The notes under the pieces are model-generated. The model saw only the letters and a list, made by a program, of their open reading frames with translations. It made no database searches and was not told the DNA's origin. A program made the translations under genes and the position numbers. Below, piece by piece: positions 2,589-42,785 of a DNA stretch of 64,000 nucleotides (its first letter is position 1; every line of letters starts with the position of its first letter). The DNA comes from Histomonas meleagridis (taxonomy: Eukaryota; Parabasalia; Tritrichomonadida; Dientamoebidae), in NCBI GenBank assembly GCA_020186115.1, contig WSYJ01000060.1, positions 558,001 through 622,000 on the forward strand, given 5' to 3'.

Positions 2589-5387
2589 ATGGGTGCGCAA
2601 CAATCAGGAACACCAACAACACCTCCATTAACTACATTAGATCTCAGTGAGAGCGGATTAACTGCTGTGCCATATAAACCAGAATTTGAATATCTTCAAC
2701 AATTAATAGCACCACGAAATCTCATTCGTGATCTTCCTATGTCATTACATAATTTGCGTGGTCTTGATATTTCCTTTAATTTTATACGACGGCTCACCCC
2801 TAAATTAATTCAAGAAATTCAAAGTTATGATAATCTCGTATATCTTGATCTATCCATAAATTTTATCTCTGATTTAAAAAATCTTTTAGACGGCATGCCA
2901 GCATTAAAACGTCTTTATTTATTTAGCAACAAAATTTCTCATATTAATATTCGGTCAGATATAGAATTTCTTAATTTAGGACATAACTTATTTACCTCTG
3001 TACCAGAATTACCAAATTCACTCATAAAGTTAAATATGGATTTCAACTACATAAAAACAATCGATTTTTGCCTTCCAAATCTGACAAAACTTTCAATGTC
3101 ATTGAATGGCATTGAATATTTTCGAGAGGGTATTCAATTTCCACTTTTGAAAGAACTTGACCTGTCAAAAAACCGTTTGAAAAAAGTGCCAAATTTATTT
3201 TACTTTTGCCCAAAACTCGAAGTTCTTGATCTTTCTGATAACTTACTTGAGGAATTCCCATTACCTCCTCAAACTATAGTCGATTATAACTTATCCGCAA
3301 ACAAATTTAGAACCGTGCCTCATATTTTACGATATCTGACCAAATTAAAAAAATTGGACCTAAGCAAAAATAGGATAAAAAGAATACCAAGACTTCCTCC
3401 GTCCATTTGTAGTTTAAATTTACAAGGATGTGAAATTTGTCAAATTGAATATTGTTCTGTTCCAAAATTGACACGTCTAACAATACGCGAAAACAGATTT
3501 TCTCATATCCCAGCCTTCGAAAATTGTCAGTTGACTGAATATTATTTGGCATTTAATTATCTAACAAAAATTGAAAGATATGAAATATCGCATTTTGCAA
3601 CTCGAATCGATTTCTCATATAATTATATTTCCGAAATTCCAAATAATTTTTTTGACAAGTTGGATTTGAAATTCTTTGCAATTGCAGATAACAGATTAAC
3701 ATCAATTCCTCCATCAATTAAGTATACAGCTCTGACAGTATTGGTGATATCTGAGAACAAAATAAAGAAGCTTCCCAAGTTACCAAAGACATTAATTTCA
3801 CTTTTCGCAGGTTATTGTGATCTTGATTCACTTCCAGATTCACTTTCTAAAAACCCCAATCTTCGTGTTGTCGACGTACCTGGGAATAATTTGCAGTCGA
3901 TACCAACCTTTAAATCTGTTACTCGTCTTCATTTGTCCAGAAATAAATTTACGGTTTTTCCAGATAACATTCCAAACACTATAGTAAATCTTGATCTTTC
4001 TTTTAACGACATTGTCGAGATTCCAGAAGATCTTTGTTTCCTTCATCTTGATGAATTAGATTTATCTTTTAATTGTATCATCAATTTCCCAGAAAACTTC
4101 AATGCCCCAATGCTACGTTATCTAAGAATTAGTGCTAATCCTCTTGATGACCTTAACACGTCAGTATTTCCTCATCTTTTGATTTTGGACATTTCAATGA
4201 CAAATGTCAAAACCCCCGACGATAGCCCCATCAAACAGATTTTAGTATCAGAAGACTATCCAAGTTCTCCAAATCTACGTATCCATAGACTAACTTGTGA
4301 TGATTGGGTCGCTTATGCAGAAATGAAAGGTGTTAGAGATACAATGGAAGATGCAATAATTGTTCGATCACATATAAAGGGAAATCTCGATGTTTATGCA
4401 ATGATAGATGGACATGGCGGAAGTGCTACAGCTGTTTTTAGTGAATATTTTATCGAACAATATGTATCTTCAGAAAGTTTCAAATTTACAGAAAAATCAG
4501 TCTATCAAATGATATACAAGCTGGATGAAGCATTACGAAATCGAAAGTTCTTTGATGGTGCTACAATCGCAATAGCCTTTTTTAATGGTGAAAAACTAAT
4601 CACTGCGCATATTGGCGATGCACGAATTCTAGTCATTCATCGAGGCGGTGGAATATATTATTGTACAAATGATCATAAAGTTACTGAACGTAGTGAGTTT
4701 GAACGAATTCATTCATTTGGAGGTCGAATCACAAATCTTCGATTACATGGAGTTTTAGCGCCAAGTCGATGTCTTGGTGATCTTAATGTCCCTGCGAACG
4801 TCCCAATTCCCGAAGTGCACACGTACAAAATGAAGAAAAACGACCGCTGGCTCATCATCGGCTGTGATGGGATATTTGATGCGATGACGAACATAAAAGT
4901 GTCACGAGCGGCGCGACGATCAAATGATGCACGCGGATTAGCTTATGACCTTCGTAACCTTGCTTTTACGAATTTATCACTTGATAACATCTCGGTGATA
5001 GTAATAGACTTACAAGCACGAAAATTATTCGACTTTGGACAATGCCCAATTGTATCTGATACATCTGATGATGAAACTATACCTGAATATCATATGTCGA
5101 AACAATTCGTTCCAGTCGACTATTTGTTTTATACAAAGAATAAACTCATGGTTATGAATGAAGAAGAGGAAGAAGAGGAAGATGAAGAAGAAAAACTACA
5201 AAATGAAAATGAAAGTGAAAATGAAGAAATGGAAATCGTGTCAAATAATGAAGATGATGTCGAAGTAATCGGAAATCGATATGAAGACTATGAATTGGAT
5301 ATCGTTGGTGATCATTATGAAATGTATGAAGTGAATGATGCAAACCATAACAACAACGAGGAGGACTTCGAAATAGAAATAATATGA
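2589..5387 (+). CDS. Leucine-rich repeat PP2C-type protein phosphatase
   Basis: A 932-residue multidomain protein. Residues 1-7 (MGAQQSG) fit an N-myristoylation signal (Gly2, Ser6). About 20 leucine-rich repeats fill residues 16-555 (LDLSxNxI/L, PxLPxxL pattern). A PP2C Ser/Thr phosphatase domain follows at about 570-810 with its metal-binding motifs intact: GVRDTMEDA (about 581-589), DGHGG (D607), IGDARI (D677), CDGIFD (D760) and DNIS (D799). The tail (about 850-932) is very acidic. An LRR-PP2C order is also seen in PHLPP-type phosphatases. The predicted activity is metal-dependent Ser/Thr dephosphorylation at a membrane. The ATG at 2589 is the first in frame and creates the myristoylation motif, which supports it. 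Confidence 0.93.
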   Translation: MGAQQSGTPTTPPLTTLDLSESGLTAVPYKPEFEYLQQLIAPRNLIRDLPMSLHNLRGLDISFNFIRRLTPKLIQEIQSYDNLVYLDLSINFISDLKNLLDGMPALKRLYLFSNKISHINIRSDIEFLNLGHNLFTSVPELPNSLIKLNMDFNYIKTIDFCLPNLTKLSMSLNGIEYFREGIQFPLLKELDLSKNRLKKVPNLFYFCPKLEVLDLSDNLLEEFPLPPQTIVDYNLSANKFRTVPHILRYLTKLKKLDLSKNRIKRIPRLPPSICSLNLQGCEICQIEYCSVPKLTRLTIRENRFSHIPAFENCQLTEYYLAFNYLTKIERYEISHFATRIDFSYNYISEIPNNFFDKLDLKFFAIADNRLTSIPPSIKYTALTVLVISENKIKKLPKLPKTLISLFAGYCDLDSLPDSLSKNPNLRVVDVPGNNLQSIPTFKSVTRLHLSRNKFTVFPDNIPNTIVNLDLSFNDIVEIPEDLCFLHLDELDLSFNCIINFPENFNAPMLRYLRISANPLDDLNTSVFPHLLILDISMTNVKTPDDSPIKQILVSEDYPSSPNLRIHRLTCDDWVAYAEMKGVRDTMEDAIIVRSHIKGNLDVYAMIDGHGGSATAVFSEYFIEQYVSSESFKFTEKSVYQMIYKLDEALRNRKFFDGATIAIAFFNGEKLITAHIGDARILVIHRGGGIYYCTNDHKVTERSEFERIHSFGGRITNLRLHGVLAPSRCLGDLNVPANVPIPEVHTYKMKKNDRWLIIGCDGIFDAMTNIKVSRAARRSNDARGLAYDLRNLAFTNLSLDNISVIVIDLQARKLFDFGQCPIVSDTSDDETIPEYHMSKQFVPVDYLFYTKNKLMVMNEEEEEEEDEEEKLQNENESENEEMEIVSNNEDDVEVIGNRYEDYELDIVGDHYEMYEVNDANHNNNEEDFEIEII

Positions 5388-5859: not shown

Positions 5860-8090
5860 ATGATAAAAACACAAGTGAACGCTCTAACTAAGAAAAATCG
5901 CAGCTTTTATGAACCACTGGTGGATGTCGTATCTAGGATAGATTCAAGGTCACAAGAAGAATCACTAAATCTTGCAATGTCATTTTTCGATTCAAAATTT
6001 CCAATAACATTTAATACCATTGTTTGTCATTTAATATATCAATACTGTGTTTGTCAAATTTCTTGTTATGATTCATATTTAAATTTTTTAACATTAATTA
6101 AAGGTGCTGAAGAACAAATTCCTAATGTTAACATTATTGAAATGTTTTGTAATCTTTTATTAAACATAAATTCAAAAGAATCCGATTTTCTTCTTGAAAA
6201 AATGTTTGAAAAAGGATTAATTAACCCAAATTTTGTTCGCTACACAAAATCATTGTTCTTTGCACATCTTATGTCACCACGAACAATTCGAAATTTAAAT
6301 GATTATGATCCATATAAAGATGAATATTCCGGCGGTGTGTTTTGGACAGACTTTTTCCAAAATTATCAAAAACTTTCTGAAAATGATTGGGTACTTCATA
6401 AGCAATTGATAAGCGAAGGAAATAATCCAGAAACAATAACAGATATAATAAAAAATGATAATGTTACAAAACTTAGAGAAGTTTCAGTGGTAACAAATTT
6501 TGATTTCGATCAAAAAATTAAGAAATCGCTTTATGAAAAAAATAGTTTTATTAATAATGATAATGTTTCACTTATCGATTATGCAGCATTTTTTGGGTCG
6601 ATTAAATGTTTTAATTATTTAATGTCTAAAGATTCTAATTTAAAAAATACATTTAAATATGCAATCGCAGGTGGAAATCTTGAAATCCTTCAAAGTTGTT
6701 ATCAAAATCATTCATCGCCTGAAGGTATATTTGAAACAGCAATTGAATTTCATCAAAATGAAATTTTCCATTTCTTTTATGAAAAAGAAGACATTAATCA
6801 CGATTTATCATTAAGTAAATTAGGAACATTATGTGTTAGATATAGTAATTATGAAATTTTTTCATATCTCGAAAAAGAAAACATGAAAATTGATGATGAT
6901 ATTATTAACGAAATTGCAACAAATGGCGACTTATTCTTGTTTAATCGATTTGTTGAGAAAAGAAAATTGCCTAAAAATGTTTTGTTTTCTGCTATAAAGT
7001 CCGGAAATGTTGAACTAGTAAATTATATTATTGATAAAAATGAAGTTGATATTAATGAGCATTTAAATAATGTTCTTTTAAATATTTTGATATTTTATTG
7101 TTTGTTTTATGACTCCACTTATTTTAGCTATAAAATATGGTTACTTTGATATTGTTAAATTACTGTTGGAAAACAATAAAACTTATGTGAATGAAAAAGA
7201 TATTTTTTTGTGTGATTTCAAATTGATTTCAATAATTTTTTGTTTTAAAATAATATTTGGATTTTCTTTAAATAATTTTGTACTGCATTATTAGCAGCAT
7301 CAAAAAAAGGAAATATTGAAATACTAAAAATTATTCTTGAACATCCACGAATTAACATTAATGACCAAGATATATATTTTTTGGATTCAATATTTATTTT
7401 GAGTATTTATGGATAAAATTTCATATTTCATGTTTTTATTAAATATTTTTCACAGCACTTATATATGCATCGACATTTGATTATATTGATATTGTTGAAG
7501 TTCTACTTAAACGAAAGGATATTGATGTGAATTTAAAAAATGTTTTTTCATTTTTTCTAATGTTTGTTTATCATACTCCTTGTTTTATAATGTTTTTTGA
7601 AATTCATTTAAAATAATTCGTTCAGCAGTAATGATTGCATCAAGATATGGTTATACTGAAATTGTTAACTTACTTCTTAAAAATGAAGAAATTAAAATTG
7701 GTTATAAAGATGTCTTTTAATATAATTTCATATTAATTTCTTTTATTTAAAGTTTTATGATGATATTTGGAATATATATAATTTATTTAGAACTGCTCTT
7801 ATTTATGCATGTAAAAATGGTAATTTCGAAATAGCAAAATTACTTTTGAGTCATAAAGGTAAACATCAACATGCTGCAGATAATTATTTTGTTTAATTTT
7901 TGTTTGTATTTGAAATTTAAATTTTCAAAATAAAATTTGGAGTTTAATAACTTTGTTTAAATCAGCACTTATGTACGCAACTGAAAAAGGCTATACTGAA
8001 ATTGTTAGCTTATTCTCTGCACATAAAATCAGATCTAAAATGATGAAAAACAAACTTTTGAAAAAAGTAAGAAAATCCATGAACAAATAA
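5860..8090 (+). CDS. DUF3447/ankyrin-repeat protein with spacer-interrupted C-terminal repeats
   Basis: The continuous frame runs 5860-7149. About 230 residues of an alpha-helical N-terminal domain lead into the DUF3447 signature (VSLIDYAAFFGSIKCFNYLM at about residues 238-257) and degenerate ankyrin repeats. The DUF3447/ankyrin family is strongly expanded in trichomonads. Six further ankyrin units follow, whose conserved T/S-A-L codons begin at 7112, 7282, 7452, 7622, 7792 and 7962, exactly 170 bp apart. Each unit has a 90-nt open ankyrin frame, apart from the longer last one. Each is followed by an 80-nt AT-rich spacer that shifts the frame. The last unit ends in a basic tail and a stop at 8088-8090. 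If the spacers are removed from RNA, the protein continues to 8090; if not, translation ends near 7149. The N-terminal half is paralogous to the minus-strand gene at 23216-26876. An AACCGTTAG element lies about 32 bp upstream of the ATG. Confidence 0.75.
7112..8087 (+). repeat. Tandem array of six ankyrin units with 170-bp period
   Basis: The units consist of 90 nt coding (TALLAASKKG...-type ankyrin repeat ending in KD) plus 80 nt of non-coding spacer. The five spacers, 7202-7281, 7372-7451, 7542-7621, 7712-7791 and 7882-7961, are each exactly 80 nt, although their sequences have diverged. Several share ATATTTGGA about 25-35 nt before the next repeat. Confidence 0.9.
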
Positions 8091-23215: not shown

Positions 23216-25643
23216 TTACTTTTTTTCAATTGATTTTATGTAATCGATTAGTAACTCAATAATTTCTATGGAACCATCTTTAACAGCTGCTGCTAATGAC
23301 AGCATTAAATTTTTTAGGAATAAACATCAAGTAATATTAACAAATTTCAAACTATTTTTATAAATTTTGATACAAATTAATTAACATCATGAGAAATTTT
23401 TATTTCTTTTTGTCCAAGAAAGAATTTAACAATATCAACAAATCTTTCATCAACTGCAGTTATAAAAGCTGTATAAAATAATTTAAATAATTTCCAAATA
23501 TTATTTTGAAACATGAAATTGTTAAAACAAATATTATACAAAACAAAAAAAATATCTTTAGCATTGATATCAATTCCTTCTTGTTCATAAAGTAATTTAA
23601 CAATTTCAAGGTGATCTCCAAAGCATGCACAAATTAGTGCTGTTTCAAATATTTTACATAATTTCCAAATATTATGTTGAAATCCAAACTTATTTTAACA
23701 AATTTTATTTTTCGCATTGATATCAATATCTTTTTGTTTAAGAAGTAGTTTAACAATTTCCAAATTACCTTTGCTAGAAGCAATCATAAGAGCTGTTTTA
23801 AATCATTTAAACAATTTCCAAATATTATTTTGAAATATCATATTGCTAAAAATAATATTAAATCAAACAAATTAATATTTTTAGTATTGAAATCTATTCC
23901 TTCTTGTTCAAGAAGTAATTGAACAATATCTATAAAGTTTTTATCAGTTGCATACATAAGTGCTGTAAAAAATATTTAAAATAAATTCCAAATATTTTTT
24001 TGAAATTGCAAATTATTGAAATGAAAATTTTATAAAACAAATTTATATCTTTTTCATTGATATCAATTTCTTGTTCTAGAAGTAATTTAACGAGTTCAAT
24101 ATGACCTCTTCCCGATGCATAAATAAGTGCTGTTTGAAATATAACAAATGATTTCCGAATATTATTTTAGAATTTCAAATTATTAATATAAATAATAATT
24201 AAAATATATAAACATTTTTTGTGTTTAGATCGATTCCTTCATGTTCGATAAGTAATTTAACTATTTCTGTGTAACCATTCCAAGCTGCATACATAATAGC
24301 TGCTTCATATATTATAAATAGTTACCAAATATTATTTTGATATTTTAAATTTTTTAAACAAACACTTATAACATTGATATCAATATCTTTTTGCTTAAGA
24401 AGCATTTTAACAATTTCTATATATCCTTTTTCTGATGCATACATAAGTGCTGTTGAAAATTCTTTAGATAATCTTTAAATATAATTTTAAAAGATCAAGT
24501 TATTGAAAAAAACATTAAATAAAACATATTTATAGCTTGAGAATTATAATCTATTCCTTTTTGCTCAAGAAGCATTTTAACAATTTCAATATACCCATTC
24601 CAAGTTGCTAAAATAAGTGCTGTCCAAAATAATTTAAATAATTTCCAAATATTATTTTGATATCCTAAATTATTAAAATAAATATTAAATAAAACAAATA
24701 AATATCTTTAGCATTAATATTGATTCCTTTTTGCTCAAGAAGTAATTTAACTATTTCTGAATGATTATAACGCGATGCTAAAATAAGTGCTGTTCTAAAT
24801 AATTTAAACAATTTCCAAATATTATATCGAAATTAAAATTAAATGAAACTAACAAAAAATAAAACAAATAAATATCTTTAGCATTAATATCAATTCCTTT
24901 TTGTTGTTCTAGAAGTAATTTAACAATTTCTATATGGCCAAATTCAGATGCACCCATAAGTGCTGTATAAAATATTTCAAAAAAATTCCAAATATTACTT
25001 TTAAATATAAAATTATTGAAATGAACATTAATTAAAATGATAAAATGTTTTTAGTATTAATATCAATCACATTTTTCTGTAAAAGTATTTTAACAATTTC
25101 TGTACTGCCTTTTTTGGCTGCTAAAATAAGTATTGAATTAAATAGTTTAAATATTTTCCAAATATTTTTTTAAAATACTAAAATATTAAATTAAATTTTA
25201 AATTAAACAAATAAATATTTTTGATTTCAATATTTCCTTCTTGTTCAAGAAGTAATTCGAATATTTCTTTGCGGTTATAACGTGCTGTATAAAAAAGAGC
25301 AGTTTCAAATAATTTAAATAAATTCCAAATATAATTTTAAAATTTTAATATATTAAAATAAAAACTAAACAAAACAAATTAACATTTATAACATTTATAT
25401 CAATTCCTTTTTGTTCAAGAAGGAATTTAACAAGTTCATTATGATCATATTGAGATGAAATCATAAGTGCTGTTTCAAATAAATTTAACAAGTTTCAAAT
25501 ATTAATCAGAAACAAAAAATTATAAAAATTTTTTCTAATTTAATCAAAAAAACATTTTTAGCATTGATATCTATTTCATAATTGTTTAAAATATACTTAA
25601 CAAGTTCGATATTGCCTGATTCTGAAGAATATACTAAAATATC
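23216..25643 (-). repeat. Ankyrin-unit array with spacers, mostly 170-bp period
   Basis: Unit-to-unit distances, from the first repeat downstream, are 170, 170, 167, 170, 173, 170, 168, 152, 170, 167, 170, 153, 171 and 170 bp. Distances of 167 and 173 reflect whole-codon changes in the coding block. Distances of 168, 153 and 171 reflect spacer changes (78, 63 and 81 nt). The 152-bp unit combines a 60-nt spacer with a 2-nt coding insertion. Spacers share a 5' consensus near ATTTATTTGTTTTATTTAA, and ATAATATTTGGAA plus TTTAAATTATTT near their 3' ends. Confidence 0.88.
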
Positions 25644-40037: not shown

Positions 40038-42785
40038 TTAATTAGTGTACAGATTTGTATTGAGTGACAGCACAGAGTTTTGATTCGACTTCTTTCTCCT
40101 GTAAATTACAACAGCGACCACTATGACGACAATTACCACCACAGCGCCGACGCAGATTCCGACAATCAGAGCGGTGTTGTTATTTTTCTTTTCCCAAATG
40201 TCTGCGCATTTGTCGTACGCGTTTTCCTTCATTACATCGAAAGTTCCGAACTTTGAATCATTGTAATAATTAAATGTCATTACGTATTCCAAAGTTACGT
40301 TATTGAACGCATTTTCTTCGATTGCAGGTTGCGATTCACCATAAAAGTAAATGCAGTTCAATTTGTTACAATAAGAAAATGCATCGCTTTTAATTGTTTT
40401 AACATTTTTACCAATTGTTACTGAGTACAAATTATTGCATTTGTAGAACATACAGTTGTTAATTGTTGTGATATTTGATCCAATTGTTGCGCTGATTAAG
40501 TTCGAACATGCGTAAAACAAATTCTTTCCTAAAACTTTCACTGAATTTGGTATTGTAATATCTGTTAATGATCTGCAATATGAAAAAGCGTTTATTTCGA
40601 TTGTTTCGACATTTTCGCCAATTGTAATCGAAGTCAAATTATGACACGACTGAAATGCGTTATCATAAATTGTTTTTACTTTATCGCCAATGACAATTTT
40701 AGTTAAATTAGTTAAAGAAAACGCTGATGTACCTATAGATGTAACTGATTTCGGTGTGTTAACTTCTTTTAATGATTGACATGAATAAAATGAAAAATCT
40801 TCAATTGTTCGAACATTATCTCCAATAATAACTTTCTCTAAAGAAGGACATTCATAAAAGATAAATATTCCAATCGATGTAACTGAGTTAGGAATTGTAA
40901 TACTTTTAAGTCCTGCCAAAGAAAATGCGAATTTTTTAATTGTTTTCACATTCTCGCCAATAGTGATTTGAATTAAATTGGAACATGAAGAAAACGCGTT
41001 TTCGCCAATAGTTGTAACTGAATTTGGTATTACTACGTTAGATAATAATGTACAAGAAGTAAAAGAATAATCATCAATTACTTTAACTTTATTACCAAAA
41101 GTAATTTGTTCCAAATTCGAACATTCAGCAAATGAATAAATATCAATTGTAACAATTGAATTTGGAATTTGGAATTTTTGGTTTTTGTTTGAAATTGGGA
41201 AACAAATTAATTTTGTTATTTCTTTATTATAAAGTATTCCATCATTTTTATTATTCGAATATTTATTGTTATTTTCGGATACTTTAATGGATGTAAGATT
41301 TGTGCATAAATAAAAAACTGAAGCGCCAATTGTTTCAACAGAACTTGGAATTGTTATCTCTTTTAATGATGTACATTTACTAAATGCGGACTCATCAATT
41401 GTTTTAACATTTTCTCCAATTGTAATTGTTTCTAGTGAAGAACATAAATTAAATGCATAAACATCAATGACTTGTACTGAGTTTGGAATGATGACATTTG
41501 TTAATGGTAAACATTCATAAAATGCATATTTTCCAATTGTTGTAACATTTTCTCCAATTGTTACTTCCTTTAAGTTATTACAAGAATGAAATGCATAATC
41601 ACCTATTGATATAACTAAGTTCGGAATAATAATTTGAGTAAGTTGAGAACATAATTGAAATGTGTAAATTGAGATTTTGTTTATTTTATCACTTAATGTA
41701 ACTGATAATAAATTTGTGCATTCTTGGAAGCAATATTCATCAATTAATGTTACCGAATTTGGTATTATGACATTTGCTAAACTTGCACATAATTTAAATC
41801 CACGAACACCAATTGTTTCAACATTTTCACCAAATTTAATTTCATTTAATTTGGAACATGATTCAAATGAACTGTTTCCAATTGTTTTAACTGAATTAGG
41901 AATTGTTATTTCTGTTAATAAGTTACATTCATAAAATGAATAATCTAAAATTGTTGTGACTGTATTAGGAATTTCAAATGTTTCAAGTGATTTCATAGGC
42001 GGATATGAAACAATTGTTGTGATGTCTTTGTTATAAAGAATTCCATCATTCGCATTGTTGGAATATTTTGTGTTTTCGGGGGATACATCGATAAATTTAA
42101 GGTTTTCATTCGATGAAAATGCGCCAATTCCAATCGATGTTACAGATTTTGGTATTGTTATATTACTTATCAAACAAAATCTAAATGCAAAATCATCAAT
42201 TGTTTGAACACTTTCCCCAATTATGACTGTTTTTAGACTTCGGCATGATTGGAATGAATTTTTTCCAATTGTTGTTACTGAATTTGGTATTGTAACACTG
42301 ATTAAACTTAAGCATAAATTAAATGCATAATCACCAATTGATGTGAGTTTGTCATTAAAAGTGATTGTCTCTATCCTGGTGCATCGATAAAATGAATAAC
42401 TACCGATTGTAGTGACAGAATTTGGAAATACAATTTTGCTTATTTTTGCTAAATGAAATGCATAATCACCAATGGTTGAGATACTATTTCCAAAAGTAAT
42501 ATTTTCAATGTTATAACACGAATCAAATGCTTTTGAACCAATCGAAACAACAGAATTTCCAATTTTAACAGAAATCAACTCAGTCCAATCATAGAATGCT
42601 GCATCTGGGATTTCTTTTATGCTGTCAGCAATTACGACAGTTTCTGAAACATTCTGATATTTATTTGTAAATTCTGATGGATTAGATATAGTAAGTGTTT
42701 TTGTTGCATTATCAAAAGTCTGTAATGTATGTGATAAAAGTACTGAAAAAAAGAGAAGAATTAATCCTTTAATGAGATGATTCAT
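40038..42785 (-). CDS. BspA-like LRR_5 surface protein
   Basis: 915 residues from the ATG at 42785. A signal peptide (MNHLIKGLILLFFSVLLSHT) is followed by more than 30 LRR_5/Treponema-type repeats of about 23 residues (consensus L..ITIPNSVTTIGxxAFxxCxxL), running to about residue 830. A single transmembrane helix (ALIVGICVGAVVVIVVIVVA) and a short basic cytosolic tail (YRRKKSNQ) complete it. BspA-like proteins are the largest surface family of trichomonads and are linked to adhesion. Two KYSNNxNDGILYN insertions mark sites where repeats are interrupted. The longer TTG-initiated frame was not used because the ATG gives a clean signal peptide. Confidence 0.95.
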   Translation of the reverse strand: MNHLIKGLILLFFSVLLSHTLQTFDNATKTLTISNPSEFTNKYQNVSETVVIADSIKEIPDAAFYDWTELISVKIGNSVVSIGSKAFDSCYNIENITFGNSISTIGDYAFHLAKISKIVFPNSVTTIGSYSFYRCTRIETITFNDKLTSIGDYAFNLCLSLISVTIPNSVTTIGKNSFQSCRSLKTVIIGESVQTIDDFAFRFCLISNITIPKSVTSIGIGAFSSNENLKFIDVSPENTKYSNNANDGILYNKDITTIVSYPPMKSLETFEIPNTVTTILDYSFYECNLLTEITIPNSVKTIGNSSFESCSKLNEIKFGENVETIGVRGFKLCASLANVIIPNSVTLIDEYCFQECTNLLSVTLSDKINKISIYTFQLCSQLTQIIIPNLVISIGDYAFHSCNNLKEVTIGENVTTIGKYAFYECLPLTNVIIPNSVQVIDVYAFNLCSSLETITIGENVKTIDESAFSKCTSLKEITIPSSVETIGASVFYLCTNLTSIKVSENNNKYSNNKNDGILYNKEITKLICFPISNKNQKFQIPNSIVTIDIYSFAECSNLEQITFGNKVKVIDDYSFTSCTLLSNVVIPNSVTTIGENAFSSCSNLIQITIGENVKTIKKFAFSLAGLKSITIPNSVTSIGIFIFYECPSLEKVIIGDNVRTIEDFSFYSCQSLKEVNTPKSVTSIGTSAFSLTNLTKIVIGDKVKTIYDNAFQSCHNLTSITIGENVETIEINAFSYCRSLTDITIPNSVKVLGKNLFYACSNLISATIGSNITTINNCMFYKCNNLYSVTIGKNVKTIKSDAFSYCNKLNCIYFYGESQPAIEENAFNNVTLEYVMTFNYYNDSKFGTFDVMKENAYDKCADIWEKKNNNTALIVGICVGAVVVIVVIVVAVVIYRRKKSNQNSVLSLNTNLYTN

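Follow-up and report, generated by a model that had tools for sequence, protein, structure and literature searches.

For ultrashort spliceosomal introns, passages of PMC12316389 give lengths of 23-25 nucleotides (nt) for the type B introns of Trichomonas, 15 nt for Stentor and 18 nt for Bigelowiella; according to the same passages, those Trichomonas introns have GT and AG borders, their ACTAA branch site is fused with the 3' end, and no transcript contains more than one of them. Non-coding inserts may also be skipped during translation: an excerpt of PMC5009743 reports 81 bypassed inserts in the mitochondrial genes of Magnusiomyces, which are skipped by mitochondrial ribosomes and at which codons are not strictly matched. 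Here, these systems are compared with two genes, gene 1 and gene 2, of the poultry parasite Histomonas meleagridis, in which DUF3447-type N-terminal parts are followed by arrays of ankyrin repeats whose linkers are interrupted by AT-rich elements of 17 nt. Both genes lie in a window of 64,000 nt, the whole stretch of DNA that was analysed (assembly GCA_020186115.1, contig WSYJ01000060.1, forward-strand positions 558,001 to 622,000).

The H. meleagridis elements resemble the ultrashort introns covered in those passages in being similar in size, nearly fixed in length and T-rich, whereas they differ from the Trichomonas introns described there in lacking GT..AG, in occurring four per linker and in delimiting exons of one codon. 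With the inserts of Magnusiomyces mitochondria and phage T4 gene 60 they share the property of being short non-coding blocks within coding frames; in the excerpt cited, however, those inserts are mitochondrial or phage rather than nuclear, and they do not occur one per codon. Uninterrupted ankyrin genes of H. meleagridis itself have the same fold, an x-x-G-x linker of 12 nt and a commonest period of 34 residues, but they lack the elements and have diverged from the DUF3447 arrays.

As judged from the DNA, the arrays are mostly working DUF3447-ankyrin genes in which a four-codon linker is broken by four 17-nt AT-rich non-coding elements, and these elements must be removed or skipped for the protein to be made. 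We regard it as rather probable that this is a nuclear genome with thousands of 17-nt elements devoid of GT-AG borders, in which one family is split codon by codon, and that an undescribed, length-gauged system of RNA excision (or ribosome skipping) deals with them. Among the matches listed in our literature searches, which mostly did not extend to subscription papers and preprints, there was no description of such elements.

The principal evidence comes from the internal order of the spacers between ankyrin blocks. In an alignment of 89 unique units together with odd-length spacers, the 80-nt spacer is a degenerate 20-nt repeat present four times, each copy with 17 conserved letters and three variable ones. 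The reading order is block, element, codon, element, codon, element, glycine codon, element, codon, block, with each element preceding its linker codon. Taken alone, the triplets at spacer offsets 17, 37, 57 and 77 (hereafter slots) yield the linker x-x-G-x and, with the flanks, D-x-x-G-x-T-A-L, the canonical ankyrin turn. Slot statistics were confined to 80-nt spacers with duplicates dropped (146 to 132), other lengths except the 63-nt type being judged by eye; the units are related, so the counts are not independent, and column shuffling preserves composition, not ancestry. None of the 528 slot codons in the 132 unique spacers is a stop, against 30.7 expected from column shuffling (minimum 17 in 5000 trials), although TGG, TAT, TGT and TTA do occur there. 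The 28 most diverged of these spacers are likewise free of slot stops (0/112). When 18 offsets were compared, offset 17 was the most diverse (mean entropy 1.19; next 0.93), whereas offset 0, also stop-free, is of low diversity (0.56). From six stretches added later came a further 39 unique 80-nt spacers, whose 156 slots contain 0 stops, versus 9.2 expected (minimum 2 in 5000); this sample is not fully blind: the slots had been fixed earlier, but L056-L059 were chosen with part of their spacers visible and L041 and L043 had been inspected beforehand.

When the elements are left out, the third slot encodes glycine in 108 of the 132 spacers and in 34 of the 39 later ones, as expected of a four-codon linker. 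This supports the slot reading because the uninterrupted ankyrin genes of the same genome carry glycine at that site: in their open reading frames (ORFs), neighbouring units lie 34 residues apart in 37 cases, 33 in 17 and 35 in 13, and glycine stands third in 24/37 of the linkers between units 34 residues apart, or in 19/32 without five double counts (L042 and L053 overlap). An early guess at the linker, I-Y-F-x, was dropped after the slot analysis. A sub-type of spacer is found in L022 (minus strand, block at 6833) and L027 (minus strand, block at 1700), where the elements of any one spacer hardly differ from each other (ATATGTTTTAATAATTT-like) and run five and three in a row, respectively, with a codon after each. 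Such runs suggest that element and codon can multiply as a 20-nt unit.

Each of the two arrays in the window is preceded by a long N-terminal ORF of its own, on the same strand, and the ankyrin blocks translate as T-A-L..I-D-I-N-A-K-D. For gene 1, the six ankyrin blocks described by an earlier note on this DNA were recovered at 7112, 7282, 7452, 7622, 7792 and 7962, 170 base pairs (bp) apart; the first five are, as it had stated, open coding blocks of 90 nt without interruption of the frame, and each has a spacer of exactly 80 nt behind it. The parts of both genes are as follows.

5860..7071, plus strand: gene 1 N-terminal DUF3447-type coding part, through the first two linker codons AAT AAT (from the ORF list; end point by our own reading)
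7072..7111, plus strand: remainder of the gene 1 first junction, with a 17-nt element at 7072-7088, codon GAT at 7089-7091, a 17-nt element at 7092-7108 and codon ATG at 7109-7111 (borders by our own reading)
7112..7201, plus strand: gene 1 ankyrin block 1
7202..7281, plus strand: gene 1 spacer 1, elements 7202-7218, 7222-7238, 7242-7258 and 7262-7278
7219-7221 CAA, 7239-7241 TTT, 7259-7261 GGA, 7279-7281 TGT, plus strand: slot codons of gene 1 spacer 1 (Q-F-G-C)
7282..7371, plus strand: gene 1 ankyrin block 2
7372..7451, plus strand: gene 1 spacer 2, four elements, slots N-M-H-F
7452..7541, plus strand: gene 1 ankyrin block 3
7542..7621, plus strand: gene 1 spacer 3, four elements, slots N-L-E-R
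7622..7711, plus strand: gene 1 ankyrin block 4
7712..7791, plus strand: gene 1 spacer 4, four elements, slots H-K-G-R
7792..7881, plus strand: gene 1 ankyrin block 5
7882..7961, plus strand: gene 1 spacer 5, four elements, slots F-K-G-K
7962..8090, plus strand: gene 1 ankyrin block 6 and C-terminus, terminated by TAA
25554..26876, minus strand: gene 2 N-terminal DUF3447-type coding part (from the ORF list), last ankyrin-like unit 25643-25554
23383..25553, minus strand: gene 2 array, 13 spacers and 13 further block matches

The mechanical ORF of gene 1 extends to 7149, out of frame with the ankyrin blocks, and that of gene 2 to 25506, into the first spacer. As a whole, the first junction of gene 1 (7066-7111) measures 46 nt, or 2 x 17 + 12, which we interpret as two elements and four codons. 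The array of gene 2, the second 170-bp array in the window, was located at 23697-25504 by a tandem-repeat scan and spans 25643-23383 (minus strand) with its edges; its spacers were called at 80 nt (nine), 81, 77, 63 and 60 nt, the 77-nt spacer being an 80 beside a block called one codon too long.

Beyond the window, 26 further stretches were examined (L021-L040, L041, L043 and L056-L059, making 27 with the window), which were chosen for their arrays or arose from other searches; L001-L020 overlap these 27 and were left out. The window and 20 of the stretches together contain 225 block matches and 195 block-spacer-block pairs, with a spacer of exactly 80 nt in 146/195, which shows that the pattern did not arise by chance. 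With the six later stretches included, 185 of 247 spacers measure exactly 80 nt; the constraint on length claimed by the earlier note holds, but not its invariance, as lengths of 57 to 100 nt also occur. Spacers of other lengths fit k x 17 + 3m (k = 3, 4 or 5) in 43/62 cases, where about one third would do so by chance; by our own sums, the fit is 25/29 at 57-67 nt, 14/29 at 71-86 nt and 4/4 at 100 nt. Missing elements shift the phase of the spacer as the alternation of 17 and 3 nt predicts. In particular, element 1 is missing from 12 of the 14 unique 63-nt spacers, in which the four codons are kept and read K/N-x-G/E-x; of the remaining two, one decodes as I-K-G-K in the same layout and one fits better without element 4.

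As to the mechanism, we hold with modest confidence that the elements are ultrashort non-canonical introns, which would be cut from the transcript in phase 0 without GT..AG borders and leave single-codon exons. The organism's own spliceosome, working in a relaxed form, may be responsible, or else some different activity that excises RNA; in either case, the machinery would keep the element length near 17 nt. A spliceosome is suggested to exist in H. meleagridis by sequence matches, since Prp8 was found in a frame of 2333 amino acids and one U6 candidate scored 43.7 bits, just below the family threshold of 44. The elements are 94% A+T, and among 270 unique ones the first letter is A or G in 94% and the last letter T in 89%. 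Pairwise differences between units average 0.186 in the elements, 0.170 at third codon positions of the same amino acid and 0.44 in the slots. Because the elements diverge about as fast as third positions, their letters are weakly and their length tightly constrained; an apparent excess of conservation in the elements over synonymous sites came from binning, since the rates are about equal in the unbinned comparison.

Several observations weigh against excision from working genes. The same rate of change leaves no recognition sequence evident in the elements. A GT start occurs in 39/528 elements and an AG end in 4/528, so that GT-AG introns are not indicated, and the element consensus shows nothing like the trichomonad fusion of branch site and 3' splice site. 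No exact match to an intron motif of the T. vaginalis type (GTATGT..CTAACACACAG, 5-35 nt between) was found genome-wide, and for this reason the organism's own introns may also differ from the trichomonad type. The consensus fold is empty both for 132 spacers and for 34 diverged ones, giving no conserved RNA fold, and the mean folding z of 40 sampled spacers against simple shuffles is 0.02, which does not point to structure-guided excision of the transfer-RNA or self-splicing kind. Exons of three nucleotides between 17-nt introns would presumably be hard for any known spliceosome. Moreover, 19/62 of the non-80 spacers break the length rule; nine are 1 nt off 80 (seven of 81, two of 79), several through homopolymer changes, and these could reflect either read errors left in the repeats or genuine damage. 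Once weak block matches are included, 21 stops are found in 6710 block codons, and N-terminal-type parts or other segments are broken by small frameshifts in L021, L022, L029 and L036; dead copies thus exist beside intact ones.

Translational bypassing is the main rival, and we consider it rather unlikely. The elements would stay in the messenger RNA and the ribosome would skip 17 nt ahead of each linker codon, which suits the retention of element length while letters drift and the lack of both splice signals and fold. Bypassing of the Magnusiomyces type, according to the excerpt of PMC5009743, needs no perfect codon matching; matched take-off and landing as in T4 gene 60, also treated there, is not indicated, given that the last element triplet equals the preceding codon in only 16/676 cases. 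Four skips per repeat across many repeats would presumably demand near-perfect efficiency. We know of no nuclear precedent for such bypassing.

An improbable account regards the arrays as silent cassettes, a reservoir untranslated in place whose codons would be preserved through copying from genes that are expressed. In its favour, the units are homogenised and their copy number is very high. In searches of the whole assembly (43,276,120 bases in 121 contigs), block-spacer arrays and the spacer family turned up genome-wide. In particular, a 26-nt spacer motif with at most three mismatches has 5161 matches, versus 2 for a reversed control, and the PF11929 profile gave 1695 first-look candidate places, of which 150 were scored, all 150 above the cut-off. 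The scored set includes window positions 6643-6864 (C40:564643-564864), adjoining the ankyrin units, which places gene 1 in the ankyrin/DUF3447 family. The exact block flanks GATATTAATGCTAAAGAT..ACAGCACTTAT are separated by 62-92 nt in 893 places (control 0) and by 31-61 nt in 13, 12 of them by exactly 60 nt. A hand tally of 100 of the 893 gaps gave 80 nt in 76, 63 nt in 12, 83 nt in 7, 81 nt in 2, and 77, 71 and 66 nt once each. Against a silent reservoir, however, no pair of these exact flanks 0-30 nt apart, as in an uninterrupted copy, was found genome-wide; each window array comes after a long N-terminal ORF that belongs to it and has the same orientation; and the stop-free slots persist in the 28 diverged spacers. 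A scan for shifted-frame coding returned 117 places, 84 near blocks, and the nine inspected of the other 33 seemed to be ordinary cases of a small frameshift or a gene end, none of them with a 17-nt element. On the minus strand of L041, element-bearing units are closely preceded by an ankyrin gene on that strand whose 12-nt linkers are uninterrupted; this may be one mixed-linker gene or two neighbours.

Decay, in which the arrays would be pseudogenes derived from an amplified interrupted unit, is very improbable, even though some copies carry stops or frameshifts. The blocks of 169 full units contain 2 stops, versus 61 expected (range 44-79) if they drifted as fast as their own elements, and thus most copies are taken to be working genes rather than neutral pseudogenes. 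Together with the lack of slot stops and the retained spacer length, this bears out the earlier note's view that the spacers are not decayed DNA. Residues 5, 8 and 9 are the most variable of the block; presumably, these are positions typical of ankyrin binding surfaces.

The earlier note had itself proposed a single excised or bypassed element of about 71 nt per junction, with one repeat per exon, a 33-residue period and a residual linker D-I/V-Y/F-x. Its intuition that the blocks are coding and conserved, and that something must remove or skip the spacers, has stood; the single element has not, given the alternation of four elements with four codons that follows from the slot stops and the glycine at slot 3, nor has the residual linker, which is x-x-G-x. 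In the linkers, the proposed exon of one repeat gives way to exons of one codon, and the surplus is 68 nt rather than 71 because the uninterrupted period is mostly 34 residues. One intron of 68-71 nt per junction would account for that surplus, but it is scarcely credible, as the triplets within it would not stay stop-free or place glycine at one site, and the phase of the spacer lengths would not depend on how many 17-mers are present. Programmed frameshifting, with the spacer being translated, although one frame change could cross 113/146 of the 80-nt spacers without a stop, has next to no chance of being correct, as it fails in 65/195 of all spacers, meets an in-frame stop in 17/24 of those of length 0 mod 3, and leaves the slots unexplained.

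Relatives in other sources bear on the quality of the assembly. Among 8000 candidates scored, 53 proteins are related to the gene 2 N-terminal ORF. No sequence found in the H. meleagridis genome exceeds 60% identity to one of them, P0001 of an environmental assembly, which therefore belongs to another organism; yet P0001 terminates at the linker (..GIDINAKDI), as do others, e.g., P0005 and P0013. Four relatives extend far enough into the linker to be compared with the 17/3 rule, and two of them obey it directly: in P0006 and P0014, back-translation places GGN or GGG at slot 3, and letters that allow T-A-L come next. P0015 obeys only with one extra codon, and P0010 yields TGG at slot 3, not glycine. 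Since relatives from environmental assemblies stop at the same linker and two relatives follow the rule directly, an assembly artefact is unlikely. The annotated H. meleagridis 'caskin' proteins are DUF3447-type relatives of the gene 2 N-terminal part; unlike the window genes, none of five such sequences (P0012, P0016, P0020, P0023 and P0025) contains the array, and P0012 ends at the first linker (..GIDINAQNI). No relative was found in viral contigs by tblastn, where one pattern match lacked any block; among genome contigs, one from a bacterial bin, L045, has an N-terminal relative at its edge and 0 block matches.

As introns, the elements would rank with the shortest known (the shorter examples named in the passages of PMC12316389 measure 15 and 18 nt), with three-nucleotide exons and without the splice signals described for trichomonads; bypassing, on the other hand, would here operate on a large scale in a nuclear genome. 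In both cases, a family of considerable size may be misread. In a passage of the H. meleagridis genome paper, Rab GTPases are the most abundant family with 231 genes, compared with up to 1695 candidate places for PF11929 and an array in 0/5 annotated relatives, and the word ankyrin is absent from the main text (PMC8529796). One ankyrin protein, KANK1-like, is reported as measured in this species in an excerpt of PMC10063853.

Some protein ends deserve mention. P0022, about 36% identical to the gene 2 N-terminal part, ends in NAKNVLLNVLIFYYLT, close to the NNVLLNILIFYCLF of gene 1 at window positions 7066-7111; on this resemblance, a two-element first junction may be shared between organisms. 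The annotated proteins P0037 and P0024, both of Tritrichomonas foetus, and P0030 have abnormal ends just past an ankyrin linker (RNNVYFVIF.., DDGKRILFLF and DNKGVLFFKLFI), which possibly reflect unannotated introns of another kind. Elsewhere in the window, a 932-amino-acid ORF at 2589-5387 (plus strand) resembles, by eye, leucine-rich repeats fused to a PP2C-type phosphatase, and a 915-amino-acid ORF at 40038-42785 (minus strand) is what we take to be a BspA-like leucine-rich-repeat protein that has a hydrophobic stretch at its C-terminus, presumably of the surface-protein type common in trichomonads.
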